From Bacteroidota bacterium (GTDB taxonomy: Bacteria; Bacteroidota; Bacteroidia; Bacteroidales; FEN-979), in NCBI GenBank assembly GCA_026391715.1, contig JAPLDO010000240.1, forward strand, positions 1 through 46,086: a stretch of DNA of 46,086 bases, given 5' to 3'. Position 1 is the stretch's first letter; every line of letters begins with the position of its first letter. This document shows, in pieces, positions 8,255 to 46,086 of the stretch. Position numbers and translations under genes: made by a program. Below the pieces are notes generated by a model, which was given only the letters and a program-made list of their open reading frames with translations, was not told the origin of the DNA and searched no databases.

Positions 8255-8517
8255 TTGAGCCCACTCCGAAAAGTCAATAAAATAAATAAACTGCTATTTG
8301 TCATATAATCCTTAATTGGACCCCTCCCCAAAAAGGGAGGGGAGTAACGTGCTAATCGGCATAATACCATGATTAACAGAGACATTGCATATTCCCACGG
8401 GACTCCCCCTTCCCTTTTTGGGGAAGGGGGCCGGGGGGAAGGGGTCTAAAGTCAGAGGCAATAACGTGATGATTGTAGCAATGTGGCAAAAAAAATGACT
8501 TTTCGGAGTGGACTCAA
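8255..8517. mobile_element. MITE-like element with 22-bp terminal inverted repeats
   Basis: The ends 8255-8276 and 8496-8517 are inverted copies with a single mismatch; both contain CACTCCGAAAAGT. They are flanked by near-identical 9-base direct repeats, CCTTAGACC at 8246-8254 and CCTTAAACC at 8518-8526, which look like a target-site duplication. Inside are two G/C-rich hairpins (8321-8342 and 8405-8430) and no coding frame. It sits at the edge of repeat copy A. The same end motif is found on the elements flanking the hydrogenase genes. No transposase is present in the window, so mobilisation would have to be in trans. Confidence 0.65.
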
Positions 8518-31972: not shown

Positions 31973-33955
31973 ATGATCACATTTGAAGAACTGGGCATCG
32001 ACACCGATATCGTGCTTGCCTTGGTTGAACTTGGTTTTGAAAACCCTATGCCCGTGCAGGAGAAGGTCATTCCACTGCTACTCGGACCAAAAACAGATAT
32101 CGTGGCGCTTGCCCAGACAGGAACAGGAAAAACTGCCGCTTATGGGTTGCCTATCATTCAGAAATCCGACACAGGAGGACACATCCCGCAGGCGCTAATC
32201 CTTTGCCCTACCCGCGAACTCTGCATGCAAATTGCAGGCGACCTGAACGATTTTGCAAAATATGTTGATGATCTTCATATCCTTCCGGTATATGGCGGCG
32301 CCAGTATCGAAAACCAGGTTAAAGCGCTGAAAAAAGGGGTTCAGATTGTGGTGGCAACTCCCGGCAGGCTTCTTGACCTTATCCGCCGCAAAGCGATTAA
32401 ACTTCGCGAGGTTCATACGGTCGTTCTCGATGAAGCCGATGAAATGCTGAATATGGGCTTTCTCGACAGCATTAACGACATTCTCGCTGAAGTGCCCGAT
32501 GAACGTAGCACACTGCTTTTTTCAGCAACCATGCCCAACGAGGTTGCAACCATTGCCAGGAACTACATGCGCTCGCCCATCGAAATCACTATCGGTAACC
32601 GGAATTCCGGCGCTGAAAATATAAAACACCTCTATTACACTGTTCATGCAAGAGATAAATATACAGCCCTCAAAAGAATAGTTGATTTTTATCCGTCAGT
32701 TTATGGAATCGTATTCTGTAGAACGCGAATAGATACCCAGGAAATAGCCGATAAACTTATCGCCGACGGCTATAATGCCGACGCATTACATGGCGATCTG
32801 TCGCAGGCGCAACGCGACAGCGTGATGCAGAAATTCCGAATCCGCCATACGCAACTACTCGTTGCTACCGACGTTGCCGCCCGCGGACTCGACGTTGACG
32901 ACCTTACACATATCATTAATTACGCTCTTCCCGACGATATTCAGGCATATACCCACCGCAGCGGCCGTACTGGTCGCGCCGGTAAAGCCGGAATCTCAAT
33001 CGCCATTATCAATCTGAAGGAAAAACATCTTATCAGGCAAATCGAAAAACTGATCGGCAAACCATTTGTCGCAGCCAAAGTCCCTGGCGGCAGGGAAATT
33101 TGCGAAAAACAGCTCTTCAACCTGATTAATAAAATGGAAAATGTAGAGATCGAACATACCGACATAGATCCATTTCTGCCCGCCATTTACCGCAAACTCG
33201 AATGGCTCGAAAAGGAAGACGTCATCAAACGCTTTGTTGCGCTCGAATTTAACCGCTTCCTCGAATATTACCGTAATGCAAAAGACATCAACGTAAATGA
33301 GGAAAAACATAGCGAAACCTCCAGGGACAGGGAAGATCGGCGTGGACCAAGAAAGGAAGTTTCGAGTTTTGCGCGACTATCAATAAACATCGGAAAAGCT
33401 GACGGACTTTTTCCAAACAACCTTATCGAACTTATAAATGCCAACAGCCCCGGGAAACGTATAAGAATCGGAGATATCAGCCTTGGTAAAAACGATGGAG
33501 TATTTGAAGTTGACAGTGAATTTGCCAAATTCCTTGTGCAGAACCTCGGCGACGCCGAATTCCATGGGACTAACCTTGTAGTCAATTTTGTTAAAGGGCA
33601 GGAGCAGGTGCAGGTTAATGAACGCAGAAGTTTCAAGGAAAAGAAAAAGGAAGATAATCCTCCCTTTGAAAAACGTTCTTTTGAAAAACGTTCTTTTGAA
33701 AAACGATCTTCTGAAAAACCATCTTTTGAAAAACGTCCTTTTGAAAAACGATCTTCTGAAAAACGATCTTCTGAAAAACCATCTTTTGAAAAACGATCTT
33801 TTGAAAAACGTCCTTTTGAAAAACGGGTTGTTGAAAAGGATTCAAACAGCGGCGATGGCTTCCAGAAAAGCAAAGGGTATAAAAATGTACAAGAGTTAAT
33901 GGATTTGTCTGGCGCCGACAAGGGCAAACCCAGTAAGAAAAAGAAACGCAAATAG
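31973..33955 (+). CDS. DEAD-box RNA helicase (DeaD/CsdA-like)
   Basis: 660 residues. The Q-motif region is at 1-30, Walker A AQTGTGKT at 47-54, DEAD at 153-156, SAT at 184-186, and the C-terminal helicase domain carries ARGLDVDDLTHI and HRSGRTGRAG. A DbpA-type RNA-binding domain lies at about 465-550 (SFARLSINIGKADG to LVVNFV). A basic tail holds 11 tandem five-residue units of the F-E-K-R type (564-618) and then a Lys-rich end. It unwinds RNA in ribosome assembly or cold adaptation. The tail is presumably a disordered RNA-binding arm. Confidence 0.93.
   Translation: MITFEELGIDTDIVLALVELGFENPMPVQEKVIPLLLGPKTDIVALAQTGTGKTAAYGLPIIQKSDTGGHIPQALILCPTRELCMQIAGDLNDFAKYVDDLHILPVYGGASIENQVKALKKGVQIVVATPGRLLDLIRRKAIKLREVHTVVLDEADEMLNMGFLDSINDILAEVPDERSTLLFSATMPNEVATIARNYMRSPIEITIGNRNSGAENIKHLYYTVHARDKYTALKRIVDFYPSVYGIVFCRTRIDTQEIADKLIADGYNADALHGDLSQAQRDSVMQKFRIRHTQLLVATDVAARGLDVDDLTHIINYALPDDIQAYTHRSGRTGRAGKAGISIAIINLKEKHLIRQIEKLIGKPFVAAKVPGGREICEKQLFNLINKMENVEIEHTDIDPFLPAIYRKLEWLEKEDVIKRFVALEFNRFLEYYRNAKDINVNEEKHSETSRDREDRRGPRKEVSSFARLSINIGKADGLFPNNLIELINANSPGKRIRIGDISLGKNDGVFEVDSEFAKFLVQNLGDAEFHGTNLVVNFVKGQEQVQVNERRSFKEKKKEDNPPFEKRSFEKRSFEKRSSEKPSFEKRPFEKRSSEKRSSEKPSFEKRSFEKRPFEKRVVEKDSNSGDGFQKSKGYKNVQELMDLSGADKGKPSKKKKRK
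33662..33826 (+). repeat. 15-bp coding tandem repeat (11 units, FEKR-type)
   Basis: Eleven 15-base units, each [S/P]-[F/S]-E-K-[R/P], in frame with the helicase, plus one decayed unit after it. Because 15 is a multiple of three, all other frames are also open here, which creates false reading frames on both strands. Confidence 0.92.
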
Positions 33956-33963
33956 CTTCGCGA

Positions 33964-34104
33964 TTATTCATCTCTGGCAGGCGCTATTGCTTCATAACCG
34001 ATAGCTGCATCGAAAATCTCATTTACAAACTGTGGGGCAACCATTTGGGTAACGCCAGAATTAGGGCGACTATCGCCATGACCTGCTGCGTACATTTCGA
34101 GCAT
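33964..34104 (-). pseudogene. Possible 3' gene remnant (C-terminal 46 residues)
   Basis: A minus-strand frame begins at an ATG at 34104 and ends at a TAA at 33964-33966. It has protein-like content (MYAAGHGDSRPNSGV, then QFVNEIFDAAIGYEAI). Upstream it runs into the repeat element starting near 34100, where the frame continues a short way without a plausible start. It looks like the tail of a gene whose body was lost when the element arrived. The parent family was not recognised. It could also be a short real gene or chance. Confidence 0.4.
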
Positions 34105-34252
34105 TATCCCAAAAGGAAACAATTTGGACTAAAGTCCAGTAACTATCTGGTTATCAATTGTCACTACTTAAGGTAGTGGCAATTCAAGTTGCTGATATAC
34201 CGGGCTTTAGCCAAATATTTGTTTTTATAACCACTATTAGGAGTGGGTTCAT
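34100..34252 (+). mobile_element. Palindromic repeat element, left copy (degenerate)
   Basis: Bases 34114-34215 match the reverse complement of 43760-43863 with very few differences; the match is then weaker out to 34252. Shared parts are the GGACTAAAGTCC palindrome, a central palindrome around TTAAGGTAGTGGCAATT and GGGCTTTAGCC. This copy has a one-base deletion and a transition in its central palindrome and decayed ends, so it is the older copy. It ends 15 bases before the phosphatase stop codon. The remaining DNA between the helicase and the phosphatase holds the gene remnant described separately. Confidence 0.75.
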
Positions 34253-34267
34253 AGATAAAATCATTTA

Positions 34268-35452
34268 TCAATAAAATTTCATAGTAACCTCCTTGAGAAA
34301 TTTCTCTTCAAGAGTTCGGGCAATACGATGCACAACAGTTCTGCGAAGTTCGAGTTCAATAGGCAGCGTTGGATCCTGATGAGCAACGTTGATATTTGTT
34401 CCCACAAGAAAATGAATCTCGTCGCTTTCAAGAATAAAGCGGATGATTTCATCGGCAGGACCTTTACCAGGCGAGTAATTACTGTTGTAATTCTTTAACA
34501 CTTCACTTACTTTACTCAGAGTGAGAATACCTTCTGTGATAAGATCAACGCCATTCATATAGGATACCGGAGGAAGTTCGGGATCAAACATCTCTTTTGC
34601 GTCAATAATCGTTTCGTCCCATTCGCGGGCAACCATGTCGCCTGTTGTGGCTCCGCAGATAATCTTTTTGCCGTCAAACTGTTTCAACAGCCCTGTGAAC
34701 ATCGTATCGTTTTTCGGATCCTGCGGAGGACCGGAAAATATCATAAGTTTCCGCGGTTCCCGAAAATAGATAACTCCGCAACTGATGTCGTCGAGCGGAT
34801 AAAAACTATCATTCTGGTTAGCTTTGTTTATCACCTTGGTTCCCAGTTTTACGGCAGAAATATTATGCTCTTCATGAATAGCGTCTTCAATGTACTTCTG
34901 AAGATTTTCAAGTCCCCAGCCAAGTATGTATTTTTCGGTACCCAACCCCGATTGCGTAACCCCGTCGGAGCAGAATACTATCCTGTCTTCCTTCTTTGGT
35001 TTAAAAGTTGTAGTTAATACCTCCCTTCTCTGATTTCGGTCTTTGCCAAGAATCACACAATTCCATTGCGGTTCAAACAGATGTACCCCCCGAATGATAA
35101 GGGTTTTTGGATTCTCATATTCTATGATTCTTACTTCTCCTTCTACATCAATTTCAATAATGGTGAAAGTTGAAAAATTCATATTCTTAACGCTGTCATA
35201 AGGCAGGGTTTTCATAATAACCTCTGCAATCCGCTGAACGCTTTTATGTTCCCGAGTAAAATTAACAGACAAGGTTGCGGTTAATGTTCCCAACAGATTT
35301 GCCTTGATCCCATGACCCATACCATCAGACAAAACGACAATGATCCGCCCTTCCTCCTTGATCCGACGGGAAATGAAAACATCGCCGCAAACCCGCGCCT
35401 CTCCATGACACTTTTGCTGACAGTTTACCTCGATGAAAAACTTCTCATTCAA
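34268..35452 (-). CDS. SpoIIE-family serine phosphatase, hydrogenase-associated
   Basis: 394 residues. The N-terminal half is a PP2C/SpoIIE phosphatase with metal-binding D24 (CGDVF), D43 in SDGMGHG and FCSDGVTQSG near 170. The C-terminal ~170 residues (from LMIFSGPPQDPKNDTMF) form an extra domain of unknown role, with ICGATTGDMVAREW and MNGVDLITEGI. Three cysteines near the start (C11, C15, C22) are notable in a redox setting. It lies just downstream of the PAS sensor on the same strand. Phosphatases of this type are known neighbours of sensory [FeFe]-hydrogenase-like proteins. The likely role is to dephosphorylate a regulator in response to the sensor; the target is not identified. Confidence 0.85.
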   Translation of the reverse strand: MNEKFFIEVNCQQKCHGEARVCGDVFISRRIKEEGRIIVVLSDGMGHGIKANLLGTLTATLSVNFTREHKSVQRIAEVIMKTLPYDSVKNMNFSTFTIIEIDVEGEVRIIEYENPKTLIIRGVHLFEPQWNCVILGKDRNQRREVLTTTFKPKKEDRIVFCSDGVTQSGLGTEKYILGWGLENLQKYIEDAIHEEHNISAVKLGTKVINKANQNDSFYPLDDISCGVIYFREPRKLMIFSGPPQDPKNDTMFTGLLKQFDGKKIICGATTGDMVAREWDETIIDAKEMFDPELPPVSYMNGVDLITEGILTLSKVSEVLKNYNSNYSPGKGPADEIIRFILESDEIHFLVGTNINVAHQDPTLPIELELRRTVVHRIARTLEEKFLKEVTMKFY

Positions 35453-35488
35453 AACATTTCAATTTTGTAATTTTCTATTCATAAAGTT

Positions 35489-35521
35489 TCGTCCTTCGTC
35501 CCTCGTCCTTCGTCCCTCGTC
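35489..35521. repeat. Short tandem repeat between phosphatase and PAS sensor
   Basis: Two perfect 14-base units (TCGTCCTTCGTCCC) plus a 5-base start of a third lie in the 67-base gap between the two minus-strand genes. The last bases overlap the stop codon of the PAS sensor. It may vary in copy number. Confidence 0.8.
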
Positions 35522-37388
35522 ATTTCCCCTGTGTATTCTTATACGAATCAATTATCGAATTAAGCATCTGTTCTGTCTTCGAGGCGCCCTCGCCAAGCAG
35601 ATAAGCGATTTTTTGAACCATGTCAAAATTCTCATCAATTACCTCAGTCAACCTCATCATAATCTGCTCTTTTCTAACTTCGGGCAAATACATATCACGC
35701 AGAATTCCACCGACATATTTATGACTGCGAATGGAAAAAATGGAAACTCCGAGTTTGGTATCTTCGTACATAATATCCTTGTTTTCAATAGGCTCATCAG
35801 TAGTTAGAACATAAGAAAACATTTTATAGAAATGAACCGGCAACAATGATTTCAGATCGGCGCCAACTAGTCCGGGAATCACTTCGTCAATCAGCGCAGC
35901 CTCTTCGCCAATAATACGGATAAAAGCCTTGTTTGACTGATAGATTTTAAGGTTCTCATCCACAATTACAACCCCTGATAACAGGTTTTGCAACATAATG
36001 GAAATAATTTCCGCAGATTCTTTCTGCGCTTCCTTTTCCCGTTTTGCAGTTTCCTCCGACGCTTTCAGGGCAACTTTTGTTCTGGCAAGGTTTTCATTTG
36101 TTTCGCGAAGTGTTCTGATATATTCCTGTCGGTTACGGCCGCTGAATACATGGCACATTTCGGTAGTTGCCAATCCCTGGGTAATGGCAATAGCGAGATC
36201 CCTACAGTTTGAATAACCACACGATTCACAACCAATTTCATCGTGGCTATGCCCTTCACGGTTGATCATTTTCAGGGCTTCCTCTATTTTATCCTCTTCA
36301 GGAACCGGTAACCGCTGGTCATCAGCTTCAAACTGCCGCGAAAGATCCAACTCCGAAAACGACAACGCCTCTTTCGTCCATTCTTCATGATCAAAGGTAT
36401 TCAGCCGTTTATTAGCATACTCGGTGACAAGCGTCATCCTGAGAAATTTTTCGCCGCCCAGCGAGGTTCCAGGTCCCATCAAACATCCTTCATCATAGAA
36501 GATGTTGAAGTTACGTTTGATCAGATCAATCCTGCTGTCAAATTCTTTAACGGCATCCAGCATGTTATTCCTCCCTTCAGTGGTTATTGTACTTCCGGTA
36601 AGAAGATCTTCATTGATATTGGAGGCTTGCAGAAATCCGTTGCTGATGGGATATAATGATCCTTTGAAACCAAGCGGGGGATCAAAATCCGAAAACTCAA
36701 CCTTACCCTCTCTGATATTAAATTCATCAAACAGTTGACGCAACTCTACAAAAGTCAATACCGAATCAATACGCCCTTCGCCTTCAAATTTAAGCGCTTC
36801 ATCCTTGGTGGCAATACATGGTCCGATAAAAACTATTTTAATGTCAGATCCATATTTCATCCGCATTACTTTAGCGGAAGCAATCATCGGTGAAACGAGC
36901 GGCGCCAGGTTAATGATTAGTCCGGGGTGATATTTTTCGATGTAAGAAACAACCGACGGACAGTTTGCGGTGATATAATGTTTCCCTTTAAAATTCTCAA
37001 ATAATTCTTTATACTTTGCCGCAATCAGGTCAACGCCAAAGGATACTTCACTTACGTAAGTAAATCCAAGATGCTTGATCATCTCAACAAATTTGCGGTA
37101 ATCGGTAATGTCGTGAAATTCGCCTGAAATTGTTGGATCGCAAATTGCGGCAACTTTCCCGCCCGCAGCAAGAATCCCTTTTGCCTCTTCCACCGAACTC
37201 CGGTAGGAAATAGCCCGCGGTGAACAGGCTCTGTAACAACTGCCGCAACCAATACATCGCTCGGGAATGATAGATGGCAGTTCGGTTCCATCGTCCACCC
37301 GAATGGCTTTCACCGGACAAATACGGACGCAGGAATAGCATTTGATGCAGGTTTTATGTGAAATCTGAAATAATGGTTCAATCGGCAT
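35520..37388 (-). CDS. Hydrogenase-like sensor: 2x[4Fe-4S]-[FeFe]-hydrogenase-FeS-PAS
   Basis: 622 residues. Two ferredoxin clusters (C14/17/20/24 and C45/48/51/55), an [FeFe]-hydrogenase large-subunit C-terminal domain (~75-340), a PF04060-type FeS motif (C387, C390, C395, C412), a coiled coil (~420-460) and a PAS domain (~460-570). The H-cluster loops are altered: TANCP at 140-144 (Cys for proton transfer is Asn142, ligand C143 kept), IGPC at 188-191 (the Met is Gly, the ligand kept), Thr194 where the usual Lys stands, and YDEGC at 298-302, where the third ligand Cys is Tyr298. It therefore has at most three of four cluster ligands and is unlikely to be a catalytic hydrogenase. It is probably an H2, redox or ligand sensor acting on the adjacent phosphatase. 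It diverges from hydC. Confidence 0.9.
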   Translation of the reverse strand: MPIEPLFQISHKTCIKCYSCVRICPVKAIRVDDGTELPSIIPERCIGCGSCYRACSPRAISYRSSVEEAKGILAAGGKVAAICDPTISGEFHDITDYRKFVEMIKHLGFTYVSEVSFGVDLIAAKYKELFENFKGKHYITANCPSVVSYIEKYHPGLIINLAPLVSPMIASAKVMRMKYGSDIKIVFIGPCIATKDEALKFEGEGRIDSVLTFVELRQLFDEFNIREGKVEFSDFDPPLGFKGSLYPISNGFLQASNINEDLLTGSTITTEGRNNMLDAVKEFDSRIDLIKRNFNIFYDEGCLMGPGTSLGGEKFLRMTLVTEYANKRLNTFDHEEWTKEALSFSELDLSRQFEADDQRLPVPEEDKIEEALKMINREGHSHDEIGCESCGYSNCRDLAIAITQGLATTEMCHVFSGRNRQEYIRTLRETNENLARTKVALKASEETAKREKEAQKESAEIISIMLQNLLSGVVIVDENLKIYQSNKAFIRIIGEEAALIDEVIPGLVGADLKSLLPVHFYKMFSYVLTTDEPIENKDIMYEDTKLGVSIFSIRSHKYVGGILRDMYLPEVRKEQIMMRLTEVIDENFDMVQKIAYLLGEGASKTEQMLNSIIDSYKNTQGK

Positions 37389-37495
37389 GGCGTTGGTATA
37401 ATGGTCAAAAATATGAATATCCCGCTACAAATAACCTTATGATGAAAAATAATTTTTCGGGATTACCTTATTTCGGTTTTGTTTAATTTTTCACA

Positions 37496-37513
37496 TTGTT
37501 ATCTGTTTCACAG
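37496..37513 (+). promoter_or_regulatory. Candidate Rex operator upstream of hydC
   Basis: TTGTTATCTGTTTCACAG agrees with the Rex consensus TTGTGAANNNNTTCACAA at 11 of 14 defined positions, at the exact 18-base spacing. It lies in the divergent control region between the PAS sensor and hydC, and a rex gene lies at the end of the same module. It is about 50 bases before the likely hydC transcription start, which is further than a simple blocking site. Its use is inference. Confidence 0.4.
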
Positions 37514-37543
37514 TAAAAATTAGAATAGTTGAGTTTATTATCT

Positions 37544-37551
37544 TAATTTTG
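37544..37551 (+). promoter_or_regulatory. Candidate Bacteroidota -7 box for hydCBA
   Basis: TAATTTTG fits TAnnTTTG and lies 25 bases before the hydC start codon. No good -33 box is seen, which may mean that an activator is needed. A minus-strand TATTTTTG (37406-37413), 17 bases before the PAS-sensor start, is a matching candidate for the divergent gene. Confidence 0.4.
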
Positions 37552-37576
37552 TCAGGCTGAATCAGATTAAAGGGAC

Positions 37577-38041
37577 ATGAAAGAAATTCTCGACAGAATA
37601 CTGCCAAATTATCCTCCGAATAAAAACGACGGGCTTCTTCCTATTTTACAGGAAATTCAGAAGGAGTGCGGATATCTCACTGATGAAATTCTGTCGGAAG
37701 TTGGAAAATATCTCAACATGCCGGCAAACAAGGTATATGGCGTGGCTACCTTTTACGATCAGTTCAGATTCAAGCCGCGAGGTCAGTTCCATATTCGGTT
37801 GTGTAAAGGCACTGCATGCTATTTGCACGGATCTGCTACATACCTTAATGAGTTGGAAAAGCAATTGAGAGTGAAGGCAGGCACAACCAGCCGCGATGGA
37901 AAATTCAGTCTTGAAGTGGCTCATTGTCTCGGCGCATGTGAATCAGCGCCAGTAATGAGGATTAACGACGCCTGGTATCCGAAAGTATCTCCGCAGGAAT
38001 TATCCCGGATTATTCGTTCCCTTAAAGAAAAAACTGTTTAA
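37577..38041 (+). CDS. hydC: [FeFe]-hydrogenase subunit HydC (NuoE-like)
   Basis: 154 residues, a thioredoxin-like [2Fe-2S] protein of the NuoE/HydC family. The four ligands C76, C81, C117 and C121 are in place (LCKGTAC and HCLGAC). The N-terminal helical bundle (LPILQEIQKECGYL) is complete. In HydABC complexes this subunit carries electrons between HydB and HydA. hydB follows 16 bases later. Confidence 0.93.
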   Translation: MKEILDRILPNYPPNKNDGLLPILQEIQKECGYLTDEILSEVGKYLNMPANKVYGVATFYDQFRFKPRGQFHIRLCKGTACYLHGSATYLNELEKQLRVKAGTTSRDGKFSLEVAHCLGACESAPVMRINDAWYPKVSPQELSRIIRSLKEKTV

Positions 38042-38057
38042 TATGGCTGTGTGAAAT

Positions 38058-39992
38058 ATGTTGGATAATAAAGAATTCCTTGTCGAAAAAATCCTGAAAA
38101 ATTATTCGGGAATTTATGATAAACCCACTGCTGAAAGACTTTCACAATTAAAACGTGATAAAATTCTACATCCTGTTATCTATGTGAGTATGGGAACTTG
38201 TGGAATGATAGCAGGCGCCGGTAAAACGAAAACAGCAGTTGAACAGTACCTTGAAAAAAACAAGGTGGACGCCGAAATTGTTGTAGTCGGATGCCTCGGA
38301 CTTTGCGCCGCTGAGCCACTTCTTGATGTTCAGCTTCCCGGAAAAACCAGGATTTCCTTTCAACTTGCTACCGAAGACAAGGTTGACGATTTGCTCAACT
38401 CAGTTTTTCATCATCATCTGTCGCCTGATAATTTACTTGGTCAGCATAAAAATCCCTTGCTTGAAGACTGGCCGAACATCCGTTACATTGACGAAATTCC
38501 GTTTTTCCTCCATCAGCAAAGAATCATCCTGCGTAATTCAGGAATCATTTCACCTTATCTGATTGACGACTATCTGGCTCATGGCGGTTATAAATCACTG
38601 TACAAAACTGTTTTGAATTACACTGCCGACAAAGTTTGTGAAATTGTTGATACCAGTGAATTACGGGGTAGGGGAGGCGGAGGATTCCCCACGGCGCGGA
38701 AATGGATGGTTGCCCTTGGAACCGGCAGCGATCACAAATACCTGATTTGCAATGCCGACGAGAGCGACCCTGGCGCTTTTATGAACCGTGGAATTATCGA
38801 AGGCGACCCGCACCGCGTTATCGAAGGAATTGCAATTGCCGCTTACGCAATTGGCGCTAAAAACGCATTCATACACGTTAGATCTGAGTATTCTCAGTCG
38901 CTCTCCATCCTTGAACTCGCAGTGAAAACAGCAAAATCGTATGGATTTTTAGGCGAAAATATCTTTGGAAGCGGTTTTAACCTGACTATCCATATCCGGC
39001 AAAGCGCCGGCGCATTTGTGTGCGGCGAAGAAACCGCGCTCATCGCCAGTCTCGAAGGTCGTCGCGGCGTCCCTCAATCGAAACCTCCTTATCCCGCTGA
39101 AAAAGGATTATTCGGAAATCCGACAATTGTTAATAACATTGAAACACTCGCTAATATTCCTGCGATTCTCGAAAACGGTCCCATCTGGTTCAAATCAATT
39201 GGCACAAAAGAAAGCAGAGGCACTAAAATTTTCAGCATCGCCGGAAAAGCCGAACAAACAGGCTTCATAGAAATAGCTATGGGGATTCCGATTTCAAAAA
39301 TTGTCAATGAAATTGCCGGTGGCGTAAAAAACGGGAAAAAGTTAAAGGCGGTTCAGCTCGGCGGACCATCGGGCGTTTGTATTTCTGTTAAAGACCTTGA
39401 TACGCCAATTGGATATGAATCGCTGCAGGCAATTGGTTCTTCACTGGGACTTGGCGGGTTGATCATACTTGACGAGGATACCTGCATGGTCAATCTTTCG
39501 AGATATTTCATTGAATTTCTTCAGAAAGAGAGTTGCGGAAAATGTATTCCCTGCCGCGAAGGAACAAAAAGAATGCTTCAGATTCTCGATGAAGTTACAC
39601 GTCGCCCGCGGGAAGAGAGTTCGCATGAAACGCTGGAACGATTTAAAGGGGTGATGGAACTTGAAACCCTCGCCGAAGTTATCCGCGATACTTCCCTCTG
39701 CGGACTTGGGCAGAATGCTCCCAATCCTGTCCTCTCTTCTCTTAAATGGTTCAGAGAAGAATATGAAGACCATATTTTCGACCGTAAATGCAACGCAGGC
39801 GTATGCCATGACCTGCGAACCTTTGTGATTGACGCCGACGTATGTAACGGATGTAATATTTGTCAGAAAAAATGCCCCGAACACGCAATTATCGGTTCAA
39901 TCAAACTACCCCATTTTATCATTGAAGCAAGATGTACAGGTTGTGGAATTTGTTTCGACAGTTGCAAATTCAATGCTATTTACTTTAAATAA
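38058..39992 (+). CDS. hydB: [FeFe]-hydrogenase subunit HydB (NuoF-like, NADH/FMN)
   Basis: 644 residues. An N-terminal [2Fe-2S] thioredoxin-like domain (C48, C79, C83), then the NuoF core with the FMN/NADH glycine loop GRGGGGFPTARKW (~204-216) and NADESDPGAFMNR, then the N3-type cluster C493/C496/C499 and C548. It finishes with a ferredoxin domain (C596/599/602/606 and C626/629/632/636). It oxidises NADH or reduces NAD+ and is where electron bifurcation is thought to occur in this family. hydA follows 8 bases after the stop. Confidence 0.95.
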   Translation: MLDNKEFLVEKILKNYSGIYDKPTAERLSQLKRDKILHPVIYVSMGTCGMIAGAGKTKTAVEQYLEKNKVDAEIVVVGCLGLCAAEPLLDVQLPGKTRISFQLATEDKVDDLLNSVFHHHLSPDNLLGQHKNPLLEDWPNIRYIDEIPFFLHQQRIILRNSGIISPYLIDDYLAHGGYKSLYKTVLNYTADKVCEIVDTSELRGRGGGGFPTARKWMVALGTGSDHKYLICNADESDPGAFMNRGIIEGDPHRVIEGIAIAAYAIGAKNAFIHVRSEYSQSLSILELAVKTAKSYGFLGENIFGSGFNLTIHIRQSAGAFVCGEETALIASLEGRRGVPQSKPPYPAEKGLFGNPTIVNNIETLANIPAILENGPIWFKSIGTKESRGTKIFSIAGKAEQTGFIEIAMGIPISKIVNEIAGGVKNGKKLKAVQLGGPSGVCISVKDLDTPIGYESLQAIGSSLGLGGLIILDEDTCMVNLSRYFIEFLQKESCGKCIPCREGTKRMLQILDEVTRRPREESSHETLERFKGVMELETLAEVIRDTSLCGLGQNAPNPVLSSLKWFREEYEDHIFDRKCNAGVCHDLRTFVIDADVCNGCNICQKKCPEHAIIGSIKLPHFIIEARCTGCGICFDSCKFNAIYFK

Positions 39993-40000
39993 CCAATGGC

Positions 40001-41722
40001 ATGCAATTCAATATTGAAATTAACAATCAGCAGGTTTCAGCCAAACGTGGTGAGACAATAAAAAATGTACTCGACAGATTCGGCATACATGTTCCCACCT
40101 TGTGTTACCTGGAGGGTTTCACCCCGACTGGCGGATGCCGGATGTGCGTTGTGGAGATTGAGGGAATTACAGGGCTGGTTCCTGCCTGTTCGCATCAGGT
40201 AACCGAATGGATGAAAATTAAAACTCATTCGCCCCGTGTATTAAAAGCAAGGAAAACATTGGTCGAACTTCTCCTTGCAAGTCATCCCGATGATTGCCTC
40301 TACTGCGAAAGCAGCGGAAATTGCGGGTTGCAGAACCTTGCTATGGAAATGAATATTAAGGAGCGAAAGTATCACGGAAAAAAAGAGAATATTCAAATTG
40401 ATAATGCCTGTCCATCCATTGTAAGGGATCCGGCGAAATGTGTGCTTTGCGGACGTTGTATCCGGGTTTGTGACGAAACCGTAGGCGTTTCTGCAATTGA
40501 CGTGATTGGCAGAGGAAGCGGCAGCCGCATCGGGACTTCATATAATAAAGGGCTGAACATTCAGAACTGCGTAAAATGCGGACAATGCATCATGGTTTGC
40601 CCTACCGGAGCGCTCACTGAAAAATCGGGTTATCAGGCGGTTATTGACGCTCTTCATAACCCGGCGCTTTTTCCTGTGGTTCAATTCTCACCAACCGTTC
40701 CCGCTGCAATTGCCGAAGATTTCGGATTGAAACCAAGCAAAGATTTGCTCAATCTTTTGCGTGCAGCGCTGAAAGCAATTGGTTTTCGCCAGATATTCGA
40801 TGTTTCTATGGCTGCCGATCTTACAATTATGGAAGAGGCGGTTGAATTTCTTGACCGTTTGAACAATCATGGAAAACTCCCCATGATAACATCGTGTTGC
40901 CCTTCGTGGGTTAGATATGTCGAAGAAATTAAACCACAACTTCTTCCCAATTTGTCAACTACCCGATCGCCTCAGCAAATTATGGGGCGATTAATAAAAA
41001 ACTATATTACATCCTCTGCCGGACAAAAAGCTGAAGATGTATTTGTTGTTTCTGTGATGCCCTGCACCGCCAAGAAATATGAAGCCAATGGCGACCGCAT
41101 GAAAGATGGTTCAACCCGGTATGTGGATGCTGTTCTCACAACGAGGGAACTGGCAAGGATCATTCGCCTTATGGGGATTGAATTCAGCGGTATAGAACCA
41201 GAACCCGCTGATACTGCATTTGGCATGAGAAGTTCGGCTGGAAATTTGTTTGGAGTATCAGGCGGTCATCTTGAAGGTCTGCTGCGAACTATTCAGTATA
41301 TTTCAACCGGACCTGATACCAATTCTATAAAAATAAGTGAATTGCGCGGATTAAAAAACAAGAAGGAAGCCCGCTTTAAATTTGGAAAACAGTTCATCAG
41401 GGTAGCTGCTGTAAATGGGTTGAACAACGCAAAAATACTGATGGAAGAGGTTGCTGCCGGTCGTGAAGATTACCAGATTATTGAAGTTATGGCATGCCCT
41501 TATGGCTGCATTAATGGCGGGGGGCAAAAACTCAATCCCGACGAAAAGAACCTGAAATCGCGAATGAAAGCCCTTTATGACGTTGACGATGAGGAGATGA
41601 TCAAAGTGGCGCATAAAAATCCGATTATAACAGATTTATATGATAAATTCCTTGCAAAGCCTGGAAGTACACAAAATAAGGAATTATTGCATGTTTCACG
41701 AAATATTCCGGAGGCGCAATGA
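40001..41722 (+). CDS. hydA: [FeFe]-hydrogenase catalytic subunit HydA (group A3-like)
   Basis: 573 residues, whose H-cluster positions coincide with Clostridium pasteurianum CpI. [2Fe-2S]: C35, C46, C49, C63. His-ligated cluster: H95, C99, C102, C108. Two [4Fe-4S]: C147/150/153/157 and C190/193/196/200. H-cluster loops: TSCCP at 297-301, MPCTAK at 353-358 and MACPYGC at 497-503, all intact, including proton-transfer C299 and K358. This should be an active H2-producing or -using enzyme. The maturases HydE, HydF and HydG are not in the window. The stop overlaps the next start by four bases (ATGA). Confidence 0.97.
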   Translation: MQFNIEINNQQVSAKRGETIKNVLDRFGIHVPTLCYLEGFTPTGGCRMCVVEIEGITGLVPACSHQVTEWMKIKTHSPRVLKARKTLVELLLASHPDDCLYCESSGNCGLQNLAMEMNIKERKYHGKKENIQIDNACPSIVRDPAKCVLCGRCIRVCDETVGVSAIDVIGRGSGSRIGTSYNKGLNIQNCVKCGQCIMVCPTGALTEKSGYQAVIDALHNPALFPVVQFSPTVPAAIAEDFGLKPSKDLLNLLRAALKAIGFRQIFDVSMAADLTIMEEAVEFLDRLNNHGKLPMITSCCPSWVRYVEEIKPQLLPNLSTTRSPQQIMGRLIKNYITSSAGQKAEDVFVVSVMPCTAKKYEANGDRMKDGSTRYVDAVLTTRELARIIRLMGIEFSGIEPEPADTAFGMRSSAGNLFGVSGGHLEGLLRTIQYISTGPDTNSIKISELRGLKNKKEARFKFGKQFIRVAAVNGLNNAKILMEEVAAGREDYQIIEVMACPYGCINGGGQKLNPDEKNLKSRMKALYDVDDEEMIKVAHKNPIITDLYDKFLAKPGSTQNKELLHVSRNIPEAQ

Positions 41723-43704
41723 GCCATAGCTATCACCGGCAACTCGTTTTTACAATCAAGGACCGATGCAGGGTTTGCTTTACCTGTGTTCGCGAATGTC
41801 CTGTAAAAGCTATTAAAATCATCAACGGACAAGCCGAAGTAATCAACGACCGTTGTATCGGTTGCGGCAATTGTGTTAGGGTTTGCAGCCAGGGAGCTAA
41901 AATTGCACTACGGTCAGTTGATGCGGTGTTTGATCTTTTAACCTCTAAAAGTAAAATTGCCGCCTGCATTGCGCCAAGTTTTCCTGCGGAATTTACAGAA
42001 ATTACCGACTATAAAGTCCTGGTTGGGATGATAAGAAAACTGGGATTTGATTATGTTACCGAGGTTTCGTTTGGCGCTGATATCGTTGCAAGGGAATATG
42101 AAAAAATGATCAAAACAAATGATTTTGAAGGAGATATTTCATCCGATTGTCCGGCAATTGTATACTTTATCCGTCATTATCATCCCGACATTGTTTCCTA
42201 TCTCGCTCCAATCGCTTCGCCAATGGTGGCAATGTCGCGCGTGATGAAAAAGAAGCATGGGGAAGCGCTCAAAGTGGTTTTTATAGGTCCATGTTTTGCG
42301 AAAAAAGCTGAAACAAACGAAACCGATGAGGTTCTAACCTTTCGCGAACTCCGGGAAATGTTTGACAAATCAAATATCCGGGCTGAAAATACCGATCCTT
42401 CCGAATTTGATCCGCCTCATGGCGGTAAGGGCGCAATATTTCCCATCAGCCGCGGTCTCTATTATACTGCCAACAACCATGAATCAATTCCGGAAGAAAG
42501 GGTAATAATCGCCGAAGGTCAGGTAAATTATAAAGAAGCCATCACCGAATTTGAAGAGGGCTATATCCGCAAAAAACACCTGATGCTTCTATGTTGCGAA
42601 GGTTGTATAATGGGACCCGGCACTTCTCCCGGCGGCAAAAGGTTCGCCAGAAGCGCTGCGGTTGGCGAATATGTCAACAAAAAACTTCAGAATATTAACA
42701 AGGAATCTTGGGAACGGGATATTCAGGAATATTGCAGAATTGACCTGTCTCAGACTTTTACGCCTGAAGATCGCCGCCTGGCTCCTCCAACTAATGAAGA
42801 TGTTCAATTGGCGCTGCAATCAATGGGAAAGTTTTCCCCCGGCGACCACCTGAACTGCGGCGCCTGTGGTTATGATACCTGTGTGGATCATGCCAGCGCC
42901 ATTGTTAATGGGCATGCTGAAACCGAGATGTGCCTTCCTTTCACAATCGAAAAACTGCATGATTCAATAAATAACCTGAATGTTTCCAACGAAAAACTTG
43001 CCAAAGCAAAAGCAGCGCTTCAACAATCGGAAAAACTTGCCCACATGGGACAGCTTTCTGCCGGAATTGCTCACGAACTTAATAATCCGCTTGGCGTTAT
43101 TACCATGTACAGTTCAATTCTGATGGATGAAACCCCTGAAGGCGACCCCGTTCGAGAAGACCTGAAACTTATCGTGGAGCAAGCCGACAGATGTAAAAAA
43201 ATCGTCAGTGGATTGCTTAATTTTGCCCGTAAAAACCAGGTTAATCTTACAGAAACCAATGTGGTGAAATTCATGGAGCATAGCCTTAATTCCATCATCA
43301 AACCCGAAAAAGTGACTTGCACATTTACATCAAACATTGCCGATCCAATAGGATTCCTCGATATTGACCAGATGATGCAGGTAGTCACAAACCTTGAAAA
43401 GAACGCTATTGAGGCAATGCGCGATGGAGGATCGCTTAATGTCAGCGTTGAAGGAGACCGCGAAGAAATCACCTTCATTGTGAGCGACACAGGGAGTGGA
43501 ATCCTGAAAGAAAACATGGATAAAATCTTCACGCCTTTTTTTACTACCAAGGAAATGGGCAAAGGAACCGGTCTTGGATTAGCTCTCATCTATGGAATCG
43601 TAAAAATGCACAAAGGAAAAATCCATGTTGATTCAAATGCCGATCCGGCAGAAGGACCAACCGGCACAACTTTCAGGATAAGTATTCCGAGGGGGAGAAA
43701 TTGA
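41719..43704 (+). CDS. Hydrogenase-like sensor histidine kinase
   Basis: 661 residues. Two ferredoxin clusters (C17/20/23/27 and C46/49/52/56), a hydrogenase large-subunit-like domain (~75-340), a PF04060-type FeS motif (C380, C383, C388, C405), a short coiled coil, a HisKA domain with phospho-acceptor H452 (GIAHELNNP) and an HATPase (DTGSG, GTGLGLALI). In the H-cluster loops all four ligand Cys are kept (C144, C192, C292, C296) and so is K195. Proton-transfer Cys is Asp143 and the L2 Met is Gly190. It can thus hold a modified H-cluster and sense H2 or CO-like ligands. ATGA overlap with hydA means stoichiometric co-translation. The lone receiver and the receiver-kinase downstream are candidate partners. 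Confidence 0.93.
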   Translation: MSHSYHRQLVFTIKDRCRVCFTCVRECPVKAIKIINGQAEVINDRCIGCGNCVRVCSQGAKIALRSVDAVFDLLTSKSKIAACIAPSFPAEFTEITDYKVLVGMIRKLGFDYVTEVSFGADIVAREYEKMIKTNDFEGDISSDCPAIVYFIRHYHPDIVSYLAPIASPMVAMSRVMKKKHGEALKVVFIGPCFAKKAETNETDEVLTFRELREMFDKSNIRAENTDPSEFDPPHGGKGAIFPISRGLYYTANNHESIPEERVIIAEGQVNYKEAITEFEEGYIRKKHLMLLCCEGCIMGPGTSPGGKRFARSAAVGEYVNKKLQNINKESWERDIQEYCRIDLSQTFTPEDRRLAPPTNEDVQLALQSMGKFSPGDHLNCGACGYDTCVDHASAIVNGHAETEMCLPFTIEKLHDSINNLNVSNEKLAKAKAALQQSEKLAHMGQLSAGIAHELNNPLGVITMYSSILMDETPEGDPVREDLKLIVEQADRCKKIVSGLLNFARKNQVNLTETNVVKFMEHSLNSIIKPEKVTCTFTSNIADPIGFLDIDQMMQVVTNLEKNAIEAMRDGGSLNVSVEGDREEITFIVSDTGSGILKENMDKIFTPFFTTKEMGKGTGLGLALIYGIVKMHKGKIHVDSNADPAEGPTGTTFRISIPRGRN

Positions 43705-43725
43705 TGAACAATAGAACATTAAAGA

Positions 43726-43883
43726 TTGAGTCCACTCCGAAAAGTGGGTATAAAAATCAAAATTTGGCTAAAGCCCGGTATATCAGCAACTTGAATTGCC
43801 ACTACCTTAAGGTAGTGGCAATTGATAACCAGATAGTTACTGGACTTTAGTCCAAAATTGTTGCCATTTCGGAGGAGTTTCAA
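43726..43883 (-). mobile_element. Palindromic repeat element, right copy
   Basis: A 158-base element in inverted orientation to that at 34100-34252. Left end 43726-43742 and right end 43867-43883 are imperfect inverted repeats (13 of 17). The left one is also shared with the MITE-like element at 8255. Inside are a perfect 30-bp palindrome (43794-43823) and the two short palindromes GGCTAAAGCC and GGACTTTAGTCC. It separates the sensor kinase from its likely receiver gene and could act as a terminator or a folded RNA element. Confidence 0.75.
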
Positions 43884-43902
43884 AATTAGAAAATTAAAAA
43901 AT

Positions 43903-44307
43903 ATGAATCATTCGAATTATACAATTTTGATAGTAGATGATGATCAGGATTATCTATTTCAGTTACAAACAAAAGTAGAACGTTTTGGCTTTAAAACCAT
44001 TACTGCCGACGGGCAACGGGAAGCTGAGGCGCTACTCGAAAAAGTGAAACCCGACCTGGCGATTCTCGACCTGATGATGGAAAACGAAGACAGTGGCTTC
44101 ATCCTTTGCTTTAAAATGAAAAAGAAATATCCCGATGTGCCGATCATCATCGCCACAGGCGTTACCGCAGAAACCGGGATAACTTTCGACGTGAATGATG
44201 AAAATAACCGGAAATGGATCAAAGCCGATCGTTTTCTCGACAAAGGCATTCGTTCGGATTTGCTGAAGGAAGAGATTGAAAAATTGCTGTTGCAAAATTC
44301 GATATAA
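43903..44307 (+). CDS. Stand-alone receiver-domain response regulator
   Basis: The start is taken at ATG 43903; the longer frame from 43858 begins inside the repeat element. It is a 134-residue receiver domain only, with acidic residues 12-14 (VDDDQD), phospho-acceptor D56 (AILDLMME) and a Lys in FLDKGI. There is no DNA-binding or enzyme output, so it must act by protein contact or phosphate transfer, most likely from the hydrogenase-like kinase upstream to the hybrid kinase downstream. Confidence 0.85.
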   Translation: MNHSNYTILIVDDDQDYLFQLQTKVERFGFKTITADGQREAEALLEKVKPDLAILDLMMENEDSGFILCFKMKKKYPDVPIIIATGVTAETGITFDVNDENNRKWIKADRFLDKGIRSDLLKEEIEKLLLQNSI

Positions 44308-44354
44308 TGTTATCAAACATGTTTTTTCGCATATTTTTGATTTGAAATAAATAC

Positions 44355-45488
44355 ATGGCAACACTTAAAATTCTCGTCGTTGATGACGAACCCGGAATCA
44401 GAAGCGGAATAACCAGGATACTTCGCAATTTCAGGGTAGACTATCCTTTCATGGATGAAGCTTTCGACTTTGAAGTGCTTGAAGCCGCAACAGGAGAAGC
44501 CGGTATTGAGATTGTTGAATCAAATCAGCCGGATATAGTTTTACTCGACAACAAACTGCCAGGAATTCAGGGTGTTGAAGTCTTAGCGTATATCAAGGAA
44601 AAAAAGAAAAACATTATCGTTGTGATGATCACCTCCTACGCCTCACTTGAACTCGCCGTAAAAGCCACATCCGATGGCGCTTATGATTTTATCCCTAAAC
44701 CATTTACTCCTCAGGAACTCAAGTCGTGCATTGAGAATATAACCAAACGGGTTTTTCTCAAAAAAATGACGCATACCTTACAGGATACAGGAAAACAGAT
44801 ACGATTCACTTTTTTATCGGTGTTGTCGCATGAACTAAAAGCCCCGTTGAATTCAATTGAAGGTTACCTGAAAATGATCAGGGAACGTCAGAATGGGAAT
44901 AAACTTGAAGATTATGATGTGATGATTGACCGTTCGCTCGACCGGATCAAGGGAATGCGCAGCCTGATTCTCGATTTACTCGATCTCACCAGAGTTGAAT
45001 CGGGAAAAGCGAAACGCAACATCGCCGAGGTTGATCTCGTGATGATCGCCCGTACGGCGATGGATACTATGCGCCCTTACGCTATTCAGAGGGATGTGAA
45101 GATGAATTTAGTGAGTGATGGAAAAATTATCATTCAGGCTGATGCCGAAGAGATGGAAATAATTTTTAATAACCTTATATCCAATGCAATTAAATACAAT
45201 CTGGATGGAGGTACTGTTGATTGCACGCTTGCCCGCCAGGATGGGTGTATTGCGATTACCGTTGTTGATACCGGCATCGGAATGAGCGCGGCGGAAATCG
45301 AAAAAATCTTTGATGACTTTGTTCGCATTAAAAACGAAAAAACCAAAAATATCACCGGAAGCGGTCTTGGTCTTTCGATCGTAAAAAAACTGATTGATAA
45401 TTATTCAGGAAAAATAGAAGTGATAAGTATTCCGGATCAGGGTAGTACATTTAATGTCAGACTTCCAATTGATAAACCATGTTTGTAA
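44355..45488 (+). CDS. Response regulator-histidine kinase hybrid
   Basis: 377 residues: receiver (1-125) with D65 (VLLDNKLPG) and K115 (PKPFTP), a linker helix, HisKA with H159 (LSVLSHELKAPLNS), and HATPase (DTGIGMS, GSGLGLSIV). There is no membrane segment. The receiver-first order fits a kinase switched by phosphorylation from another kinase, so this may be the second stage of a relay started by the hydrogenase-like kinase. Its own target is not visible. Its last 10 bases overlap rex. Confidence 0.9.
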   Translation: MATLKILVVDDEPGIRSGITRILRNFRVDYPFMDEAFDFEVLEAATGEAGIEIVESNQPDIVLLDNKLPGIQGVEVLAYIKEKKKNIIVVMITSYASLELAVKATSDGAYDFIPKPFTPQELKSCIENITKRVFLKKMTHTLQDTGKQIRFTFLSVLSHELKAPLNSIEGYLKMIRERQNGNKLEDYDVMIDRSLDRIKGMRSLILDLLDLTRVESGKAKRNIAEVDLVMIARTAMDTMRPYAIQRDVKMNLVSDGKIIIQADAEEMEIIFNNLISNAIKYNLDGGTVDCTLARQDGCIAITVVDTGIGMSAAEIEKIFDDFVRIKNEKTKNITGSGLGLSIVKKLIDNYSGKIEVISIPDQGSTFNVRLPIDKPCL

Positions 45489-46086
45489 AAAATTTACCAC
45501 ACAAAACTGTTGAGCGGTTAAGCCAGTATCGCAGGTCGTTACTGATGATCCTTTCGAAGGAAAAAACCCACGTATTTTCGCATGAAATGGCTCAGTTGCT
45601 TCACATTACCCCAGTCCAGGTTCGGCGCGACCTTATGCTTATCGGGTATTCAGGAAACCTTCGTAAGGGGTATGACATCAAGGAGCTGATTGAACTGATT
45701 GGAAGAATTATTGATTCTGAACGGGGTCAGCGGGTAACAGTTGTAGGACTTGGCAACCTGGGGAAAGCAATTATCAGCTATTTCAAAGGAAAGCGATCGA
45801 AGCTATCAATCATAGCCGCTTTCGATATTAACCCGGAGAAAATCAACCGGGTTTACGACGGCGTGGCATGTCATCATATCAGTCAGATGGCTGACATTAT
45901 CAAGCAGAACAACATTTCAATCGGCATAATTGCCGTACCATCCGAGCAGGCTCCTGAGATCGCTGAAACGCTGGTTTTGTCGGGAATCAAAGGAATTTTG
46001 AATTTCACGCCAAAACCATTGAATGTTCCTCCTTATGTCTATCTCGAAGAATATGACATGATAACCTCGCTCGAAAAGGTTGCTTT
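45479..46086 (+). CDS. rex: Redox-sensing transcriptional repressor Rex (3' partial)
   Basis: The frame starts at ATG 45479, overlapping the kinase gene by 10 bases, and runs off the window after 202 codons, close to the usual ~210. The N-terminal winged-helix part reads KTVERLSQYRRSLL and TPVQVRRDLMLIGYSG, the core of Rex proteins. A Rossmann NAD-binding domain follows (VVGLGNLGKAI at about 82-92) with FDINPEKIN. Rex represses fermentation and respiration genes when NADH is low relative to NAD+. Here it lies in the same transcription unit as the hydrogenase regulators, so it may control hydCBA. Confidence 0.92.
   Translation, partial: MFVKNLPHKTVERLSQYRRSLLMILSKEKTHVFSHEMAQLLHITPVQVRRDLMLIGYSGNLRKGYDIKELIELIGRIIDSERGQRVTVVGLGNLGKAIISYFKGKRSKLSIIAAFDINPEKINRVYDGVACHHISQMADIIKQNNISIGIIAVPSEQAPEIAETLVLSGIKGILNFTPKPLNVPPYVYLEEYDMITSLEKVA

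Follow-up and report, generated by a model that had tools for sequence, protein, structure and literature searches.

A conserved Bacteroidales gene cluster around a HydABC-type hydrogenase, with two hydrogenase-derived sensors, a kinase relay and rex

Genes and features of the locus

The stretch of DNA considered here (the window) is an entire contig of 46,086 nucleotides, JAPLDO010000240.1 (G000:C208 in our numbering), from a 5.0-Mb, 99% complete genome of a Bacteroidales bacterium, and its subject is a nine-gene cluster at 34268-46084 built around the hydrogenase genes hydCBA. Profile scans and coordinates place a phosphatase and a PAS-type hydrogenase-like sensor on the minus strand, followed on the plus strand by hydC, hydB, hydA, a fusion of a second hydrogenase-like sensor with a histidine kinase (HKS), a receiver, a receiver-kinase and rex, and these scans of the window's proteins bear out the gene order that an earlier note had read from the letters alone. 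The two halves are divergent and share an intergenic region of 188 bases (37389-37576). The features are as follows:

34268-35452, minus strand: SpoIIE/PP2C-type Ser/Thr phosphatase, 394 amino acids (PF07228, E = 3.9e-15)
35520-37388, minus strand: PAS-type hydrogenase-like sensor, 622 amino acids (PF02906, E = 2.3e-37; PF04060)
37496-37513, no strand: candidate Rex operator TTGTTATCTGTTTCACAG, differing at one base from TTGTKA-N6-TMACAA and lying between the divergent halves, upstream of hydC
37577-38041, plus strand: hydC, NuoE-like, 154 amino acids (PF01257, E = 6.2e-49)
38058-39992, plus strand: hydB, NuoF-like FMN/NADH part with C-terminal 4Fe-4S domains, 644 amino acids (PF01512, PF10589, Fer4)
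40001-41722, plus strand: hydA, catalytic [FeFe] hydrogenase, 573 amino acids (TIGR02512, 424.3 bits against a cut-off of 405.95)
41719-43704, plus strand: HKS, fusion of a hydrogenase-like sensor with a histidine kinase, 661 amino acids (PF02906, E = 1.1e-43; HisKA, HATPase_c)
43903-44307, plus strand: lone receiver domain, 134 amino acids (PF00072, E = 4.6e-15)
44355-45488, plus strand: receiver-histidine kinase, 377 amino acids (PF00072, PF00512, PF02518)
45479-46084, plus strand: rex, redox-sensing repressor, 202 amino acids visible (NF003995, 194.9 bits against a cut-off of 126)

The start of HKS overlaps the end of hydA and the receiver-kinase gene overlaps rex, while the receiver most likely begins at the ATG at 43903 rather than at the TTG at 43858. 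Since the window is the whole contig and ends there, rex is incomplete, having no stop codon and a 3' end that runs off the contig.

HydB, with its NuoF part and C-terminal 4Fe-4S domains, and the NuoE-like HydC fit the definition of HydABC. HydA carries complete H-cluster motifs (TSCCP, MPCTAKKYE and MACPYGC) and N-terminal 2Fe-2S/4Fe-4S domains (PF13510, PF10588 and PF02256), and its best NCBIfam model is NF040763 (group A6), with a score of 685.1 that lies below that model's cut-off of 765. From gene content, hydCBA is predicted to encode an electron-bifurcating enzyme of the HydABC type, a gene set that we take to be group A3. HydF, which is needed for the maturation of [FeFe] hydrogenases, is present in the genome. 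The single catalytic [FeFe] hydrogenase of the earlier note holds for the cluster, where HydA is complete, and not for the genome, in which PF02906 occurs at six places, three of them on other contigs. Elsewhere in the same genome, at L186:12100-13524 (contig C192), lies a gene for a 474-amino-acid [FeFe] hydrogenase-like protein whose N-terminus (SRRKFFGK...LSCSK) presumably resembles a twin-arginine translocation (Tat) plus lipoprotein signal, so that the protein may be exported; it is followed by a gene of 850 amino acids.

Conservation of the cluster and its Rex site

The layout of the cluster is not accidental, as measured over 119 related loci of the order, because all nine genes recur together in 38 of the 74 loci with sufficient flank, hydA adjoins HKS in 107 of 112, and the phosphatase and PAS sensor genes co-occur, with both present in 46 loci, neither in 34 and no mixed case (a phosphatase in 46/46 loci with the PAS sensor and 0/34 without it). 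These figures come from a search in which the sensor part of HKS was compared with 393 genomes of the order, 190 of which matched at E <= 1e-40, PAS-type sensors included. Apart from that of the window, 119 rows were of the HKS type (48-73% identity; two rows each from genomes G522 and G718); all were fetched, and neighbours were scored by tblastn with the window's proteins, a gene being counted only where the contig flank was long enough. In L197, a relative of the same family, HKS identity is 74%. A separate pattern scan of the genome contigs gave at least 80 loci, one of its two patterns being a general kinase motif. Co-occurrence in related Bacteroidota had been put forward as a check on the cluster, and it is borne out by the 38 loci, where the sensors, phosphatase and rex are kept by hydCBA.

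Beside HKS, the core genes are nearly constant (hydB in 100/104 loci, hydC in 95/102, the receiver in 108/112 and the receiver-kinase in 101/107), and rex (57/104), the PAS sensor (47/86) and the phosphatase (46/80) are each found in about half. Median gaps of 17, 14, 10 and 23.5 bases from hydA onward to rex are short and fit a single transcript. The PAS sensor and rex co-vary, with 40 loci holding both, 28 neither, six rex only and four the PAS sensor only. Where the PAS sensor is absent, another receiver lies before hydC in 30 of 39 loci, as against 0/47 with the PAS sensor, and some of the loci of the former kind also carry genes for a LuxR-type regulator, a Cache-PAS kinase, HydG and HydF. 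There are counter-cases as well: in L076, L137 and L277 the genes that usually accompany HKS are missing; in L073 and L078 the relay and rex are present and no hydA precedes HKS; L166 has the genes in a different order; and tblastn found no receiver-kinase in L293 or L294. No close relatives of the cluster were found in viral contigs.

The core is also found at greater distance. Among 394 genomes other than the window's own, at least 25 HKS genes of full length (41-45% identity), together with a split one, lie outside the class, and 17 of these loci were fetched as an outgroup; in genomes of the same class outside the order, no match among those listed was stronger than 1.2e-34, about the level given by other kinases. 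The outgroup holds hydCBA in 15/17 loci and both the receiver and the receiver-kinase in 17/17, with hydA adjoining HKS in 15/17. At the same places, tblastn found the PAS sensor in 0/15, the phosphatase in 0/15 and rex in 0/17, which argues against one fixed circuit. Since the outgroup has the core genes and none of these three, the core is presumably older, and the half made up of the PAS sensor, phosphatase and rex would be an addition in Bacteroidales. The core occurs, for example, in L208, from a metagenome-assembled genome of Neomarinimicrobiota, and in L205, from one recorded as Candidatus Kuenenia; L205 and L206 have a rex-like gene before hydC, and L201, from a metagenome-assembled genome of Desulfobacteraceae, has HKS and the receiver-kinase, with hydA not directly before HKS. 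On a tree of HKS made with a quick method, the PAS label changes ten times, three of these changes being forced by starred branches.

The scan for a Rex operator was guided by the consensus TTGTGAANNNNTTCACAA given in part of one published account (PMC6391272) and by the consensus TTGTTANNNNNNTAACNN, with its predicted site before hfsABCD, given in passages of another (PMC5886521). It covered the 230 bases before hydC with the pattern TTGTKA-N6-TMACAA and counted only loci in which hydC was found and its upstream region was readable; in L290 that region was misplaced, and the locus was scored as a miss at one mismatch or fewer. At this stringency, a site is present in 39 of 51 rex loci and in four of six loci with the PAS sensor in which rex was not seen, and in 0/32 loci with neither gene and 0/15 of the outgroup; the background over the same rex loci, with the hydC regions left in, is 68 of 3969 tiles of 240 bases. 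With up to two mismatches, the corresponding figures are 47/51, 6/6, 4/32 and 2/15. Because the pattern had been fitted after a first look, matrices leaving out each family in turn were also used, and with these 46 of the 51 rex loci outscore the best of the 32 controls. The idea that rex is a chance neighbour was rejected on these operator tests (39/51 vs 0/32; held-out 46/51). The earlier placing of rex with the cluster thus stands, since rex co-varies with the PAS sensor and a Rex-like operator accompanies it.

In the window itself, 37496-37513 is the only site with one mismatch or fewer in the whole 46 kb (0.66 expected by chance), and it has the top score in 33901-46086 under a matrix made without the window's own family. 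The Rex protein and an upstream palindrome, both features of a Rex regulon at the level of sequence, are therefore present together. Further sites lie in the same genome before two other hydrogenase operons, at C58:8298 and 8342 and at C70:8057; the C58 hydC frame opens at 8342, with its likely start codon further in.

It is conceivable that Rex controls the hydrogenase operon while the sensors and relay regulate something else, their proximity being mere co-location with no shared circuit. A DNA-binding domain was found by the Pfam scan in Rex alone among the nine cluster proteins and not in the receiver-kinase, so that the output of the relay is not encoded in the cluster, and HKS can stand without its usual neighbours, as in the three loci mentioned above. 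The frequent replacement of the PAS half by the other receiver fits this explanation too, as does L296 (6666-10348), the one PAS-only locus examined, where a 2Fe-2S protein, the PAS sensor, the phosphatase and a TM1266-like gene form a unit with no hydCBA beside it. The adjacency of hydA and HKS, which reaches into the outgroup, nevertheless argues against it, together with the inseparability of the phosphatase and PAS sensor and the covariation of the latter with rex, and a cluster without any common circuit is accordingly judged improbable.

Two further observations concern the DNA near the cluster. Copies of a repeat of about 130 bases, at 34123-34251 and 43727-43856, are inverted and flank most of the cluster, with arms that are 91-98% complementary, and one of them sits between HKS and the receiver gene. 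The pair (I1 and I2) was considered as a part of the cluster and rejected, being a dispersed element like the repetitive extragenic palindromic sequences, with at least 40 near full-length copies in the genome, the window's two included (40 of the 159 candidates scored). At 33588-33899, the tail of a helicase-like gene, identified by eye, is a run of FEKRS-type repeats.

Two hydrogenase-derived sensors and their predicted outputs

Both sensors were aligned with HydA, the HKS rows (n = 137) being the best HKS frame per locus and the PAS rows numbering 50, the window included in each set. Residues are numbered by what we take to be the positions of CpI (Lys358, Lys359, Glu361 and Cys299), in which Lys358 presumably helps to hold the [2Fe] subcluster. 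The four H-cluster cysteines and Lys358 are kept in 137/137 HKS rows, Glu361 in 135/137, and Asp stands at the place of Cys299 in 111/137; the window's HKS has all of these, including Asp at 299. According to passages in one study, Asp is the sole replacement at this place that is excepted from a loss of activity (PMC10055695). The C-terminal Cx2Cx4Cx16C motif (C380, C383, C388 and C405) and the kinase residue H452 are invariant in 27 rows. With two N-terminal clusters, this motif, HisKA and HATPase_c domains and an adjoining hydA, HKS has the features of a group C sensory [FeFe] hydrogenase, and because its H-cluster site and kinase are intact, it is most likely a sensor of H2 or of the redox state that H2 imposes.

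The PAS-type sensor has a comparable layout, with two N-terminal [4Fe-4S] motifs, an H-domain, Cx2Cx4Cx16C, a long helix and a PAS-like domain. As to the PAS assignment made earlier, the strands and helices of residues 472-565 in an AlphaFold2 model (predicted local distance difference test, pLDDT, 79.9) follow one another much as in a PAS domain, and no Pfam PAS model gives a match to this region of the window's sensor even at E <= 1. Foldseek with the whole model does not confirm the fold, as all 50 matches listed are hydrogenase chains. In 46 of 98 informative loci, a gene for a small thioredoxin-like [2Fe-2S] protein precedes the PAS sensor (e.g., L072:14457-14705); it is absent there from the window and its four sampled family relatives.

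The difference between the sensors lies in the H-cluster site. The window's PAS sensor reads NCP, PCIATKDE and YDEGC at motifs L1, L2 and L3 and so keeps three of the four H-cluster cysteines, with Thr at Lys358 and Asp for the L3 Cys, and at the H-cluster it departs from a group C sensory [FeFe] hydrogenase, whose N-terminal clusters and Cx2Cx4Cx16C motif it shares. Lys358 is lost in 50/50 PAS rows, compared with 0/137 HKS rows. The L3 Cys beside the bridging one is lost in 18/50, a loss that accounts for seven changes on the PAS tree and covers the window and its four sampled family relatives, and in L109 the L2 Cys is lost as well. In L284 and L288, the PAS sensor has none of the four H-cluster cysteines and is still clustered with the phosphatase, hydCBA, HKS, the relay and rex, all of these neighbours being intact. 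One N-terminal cluster Cys is missing from several PAS rows too, though the window keeps its N-terminal ferredoxin cysteines.

The idea of two equivalent H2 sensors was rejected, because the PAS sensor is without residues of the H-cluster site; the two hydrogenase-derived sensors of the earlier note, with different predicted outputs, do exist. Both proteins could nonetheless be true H2 sensors of different affinities, one acting through the kinase relay and the other through the phosphatase, to give low- and high-H2 responses. The Cx2Cx4Cx16C motif is invariant in both, Lys359 is retained in 48/50 PAS rows and the L3 Cys in 32/50, and the N-terminal cysteines of the window's protein fit such a pair. 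The universal loss of Lys358 among PAS sensors, the recurrent loss of the L3 Cys, the lack of one N-terminal cluster Cys in some rows, and the two proteins that remain beside the phosphatase and rex with no H-cluster Cys at all make two working H2 sensors unlikely. Since the PAS sensor is without these residues, only HKS is a good candidate for an H2 sensor, and the signal read by the PAS/phosphatase arm is probably not H2.

A PAS sensor that is merely a decaying remnant would account for the repeated loss of H-cluster ligands. Against this stand an open reading frame with 46-76% identity to 25 relatives and a mean column identity of 64%, a C-terminal cluster motif (C387, C390, C395 and C412) that is invariant in 26 rows, with the Fer4 motifs present, and a phosphatase partner whose catalytic Asp residues are kept throughout; loss of function is therefore very improbable. 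A further and more tentative idea, held with rather less than even confidence, casts the PAS partner as a 'pseudo-hydrogenase' sensor: several independent losses would have stripped its hydrogenase fold of H2 chemistry, and the protein would have stayed in the cluster as a redox- or contact-driven switch for a SpoIIE-type phosphatase, with the H2 site preserved in the paralogue that is fused to a kinase.

The phosphatase itself is well conserved, with D24, D43, D163, D221 and D222 present in 49/49 rows. Its AlphaFold2 model (pLDDT 86.7) matches SpoIIE (5mqh), RsbX (3w40) and RsbU-type domains in Foldseek, and by profile its nearest solved relative is RsbX; the modelled PP2C fold and the conserved Asp residues are consistent with a partner-switching phosphatase of the SpoIIE/RsbU kind. 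An additional C-terminal domain of about 160 residues (approximately 232-394; window 34268-34759) is well conserved, with many invariant residues, and had no Pfam or NCBIfam family match and no better sequence match to a solved structure than E = 0.41. In the genome there are three more SpoIIE places and six STAS places.

A proposed working of the cluster and its known relatives

The reading that we favor, at a probability of roughly 0.6, is that of a conserved Bacteroidales control cluster around HydABC, composed of a core and an optional half. In the core (hydC-hydB-hydA-HKS-receiver-receiver-kinase), HKS would sense H2, or the redox state imposed by it, and phosphorylate the receiver and/or the receiver-kinase, from which the signal would travel to a target beyond the cluster. 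The optional half would comprise, at the 3' end, rex and, in the shared promoter region, its operator, a position from which it is proposed that NADH/NAD+ gates the transcription of hydCBA and of the sensors. Its other part would be the divergent PAS-type sensor and SpoIIE-type phosphatase. Because its H-cluster site is damaged, the PAS sensor probably no longer reacts with H2, and its remaining Fe-S clusters or simple contact may switch the phosphatase, which would in turn remove phosphate from a STAS-type regulator phosphorylated on Ser/Thr.

Several observations weigh against this reading. Of the 86 informative loci with HKS, 39 have no PAS sensor. Loci with the PAS sensor and rex group together on the tree, so that a phylogenetically independent test of the two had just three pairs on well-supported branches, too few for significance. 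No STAS place lies on contig C208 and a STAS partner is absent beside the phosphatase, and the other three SpoIIE genes share their contigs (C219, C156 and C81) with STAS domains. For Rex, four of the 51 rex loci (L124, L132, L162 and L163) have no site even with two mismatches, the strict pattern shows no enrichment over the whole genome (37 places vs 62 for the reversed control), and the pattern was adjusted after the first scan, an adjustment of which the controls and held-out test are independent. For the sensors, the Lys359 and L3 Cys retained in many PAS rows count here as well, Asp, Asn or His at a lost Cys could still bind the cluster and give a modified H-cluster, and one of 119 HKS rows is without the H-cluster cysteines when every HKS-labelled frame is taken. 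The single integrated circuit of the earlier note is thus upheld in part: the genes are kept together, rex goes with the PAS sensor and the operator with rex, whereas many loci lack the PAS sensor, the outgroup lacks the whole optional half, and any wiring between the two arms is hypothetical.

Comparable arrangements are known from other bacteria. HoxABCJ of Ralstonia eutropha appears in part of one account as a [NiFe] H2-sensing system (PMC5707799). It has a separate kinase and a DNA-binding regulator, HoxA, whereas the present sensor is of the [FeFe] type, its kinase is fused, and no DNA-binding regulator of the relay lies in the cluster. The likeness is that a hydrogenase-like sensor there acts through HoxJ on a regulator of the hydrogenase genes. 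In the BfuABC clusters of Perlabentimonas gracilis, Tenuifilum thalassicum and Williamwhitmania taraxaci, passages of one paper place BfuT, a group C3 [FeFe] hydrogenase, on either side, before bfuC and after bfuA (PMC11406978). The double-sensor layout, a Bacteroidota HydABC flanked by a sensory hydrogenase before hydC and another after hydA, has therefore already been mentioned, without analysis, for three Bacteroidota, and the same passages describe BfuT in a PAS form and in a histidine-kinase form. The words 'phosphatase' and 'response regulator' are absent from the main text of that paper, which terms the meaning of two bfuT genes unclear, and residue losses, a relay and a Rex operator do not figure in its passages on the double-bfuT layout (PMC11406978).

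In Thermoanaerobacterium saccharolyticum (hfsABCD) and Ruminococcus albus (hydS), a PAS-bearing sensory hydrogenase is linked to hydrogenase genes, with signalling proposed via a Ser/Thr protein kinase, in the relevant passages of two accounts (PMC5707799, PMC5886521), and a Rex site is predicted upstream of hfsABCD (PMC5886521). Those passages hold no kinase-fused second sensor, receiver or receiver-kinase. HydS of Thermotoga maritima is likewise a PAS-domain sensory hydrogenase in an operon with another hydrogenase, with altered second-sphere residues; in the part concerned, however, conservation is reported for its H-cluster ligands, or cysteines, and for its hydrogen-bonding residues (PMC10055695), and the PAS sensor described here is without Lys358 and one Cys. 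A literature search of titles and abstracts, with subscription journals mostly outside its reach, did not find the relay, Rex operator and ligand loss together. The present analysis adds figures for how well the layout is conserved, predicts a gate by NADH, and sets apart one sensor that is intact from another that is damaged.

Weakened sensors may occur more often than has been noted, since H-cluster motifs are described in part of one paper as hard to find in group C1 of Hydrogenedentota (PMC11406978). As regards H2 sensing by fermenting anaerobes, passages of the literature continue to call the part played by group C and D enzymes putative or proposed (PMC13104023, PMC10055695). The cluster offers an intact candidate H2 sensor with relay genes, a natural ligand-loss series of a second sensor whose phosphatase partner is unchanged, and, at the same promoter, a switch predicted to respond to NADH, so that few proteins would be needed to test the question. 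It also carries a warning that not every annotated sensory [FeFe] hydrogenase is an H2 sensor. If the 'pseudo-hydrogenase' idea is true, a duplicated sensor fold would read both H2 and redox state around one hydrogenase, with NADH added through Rex.

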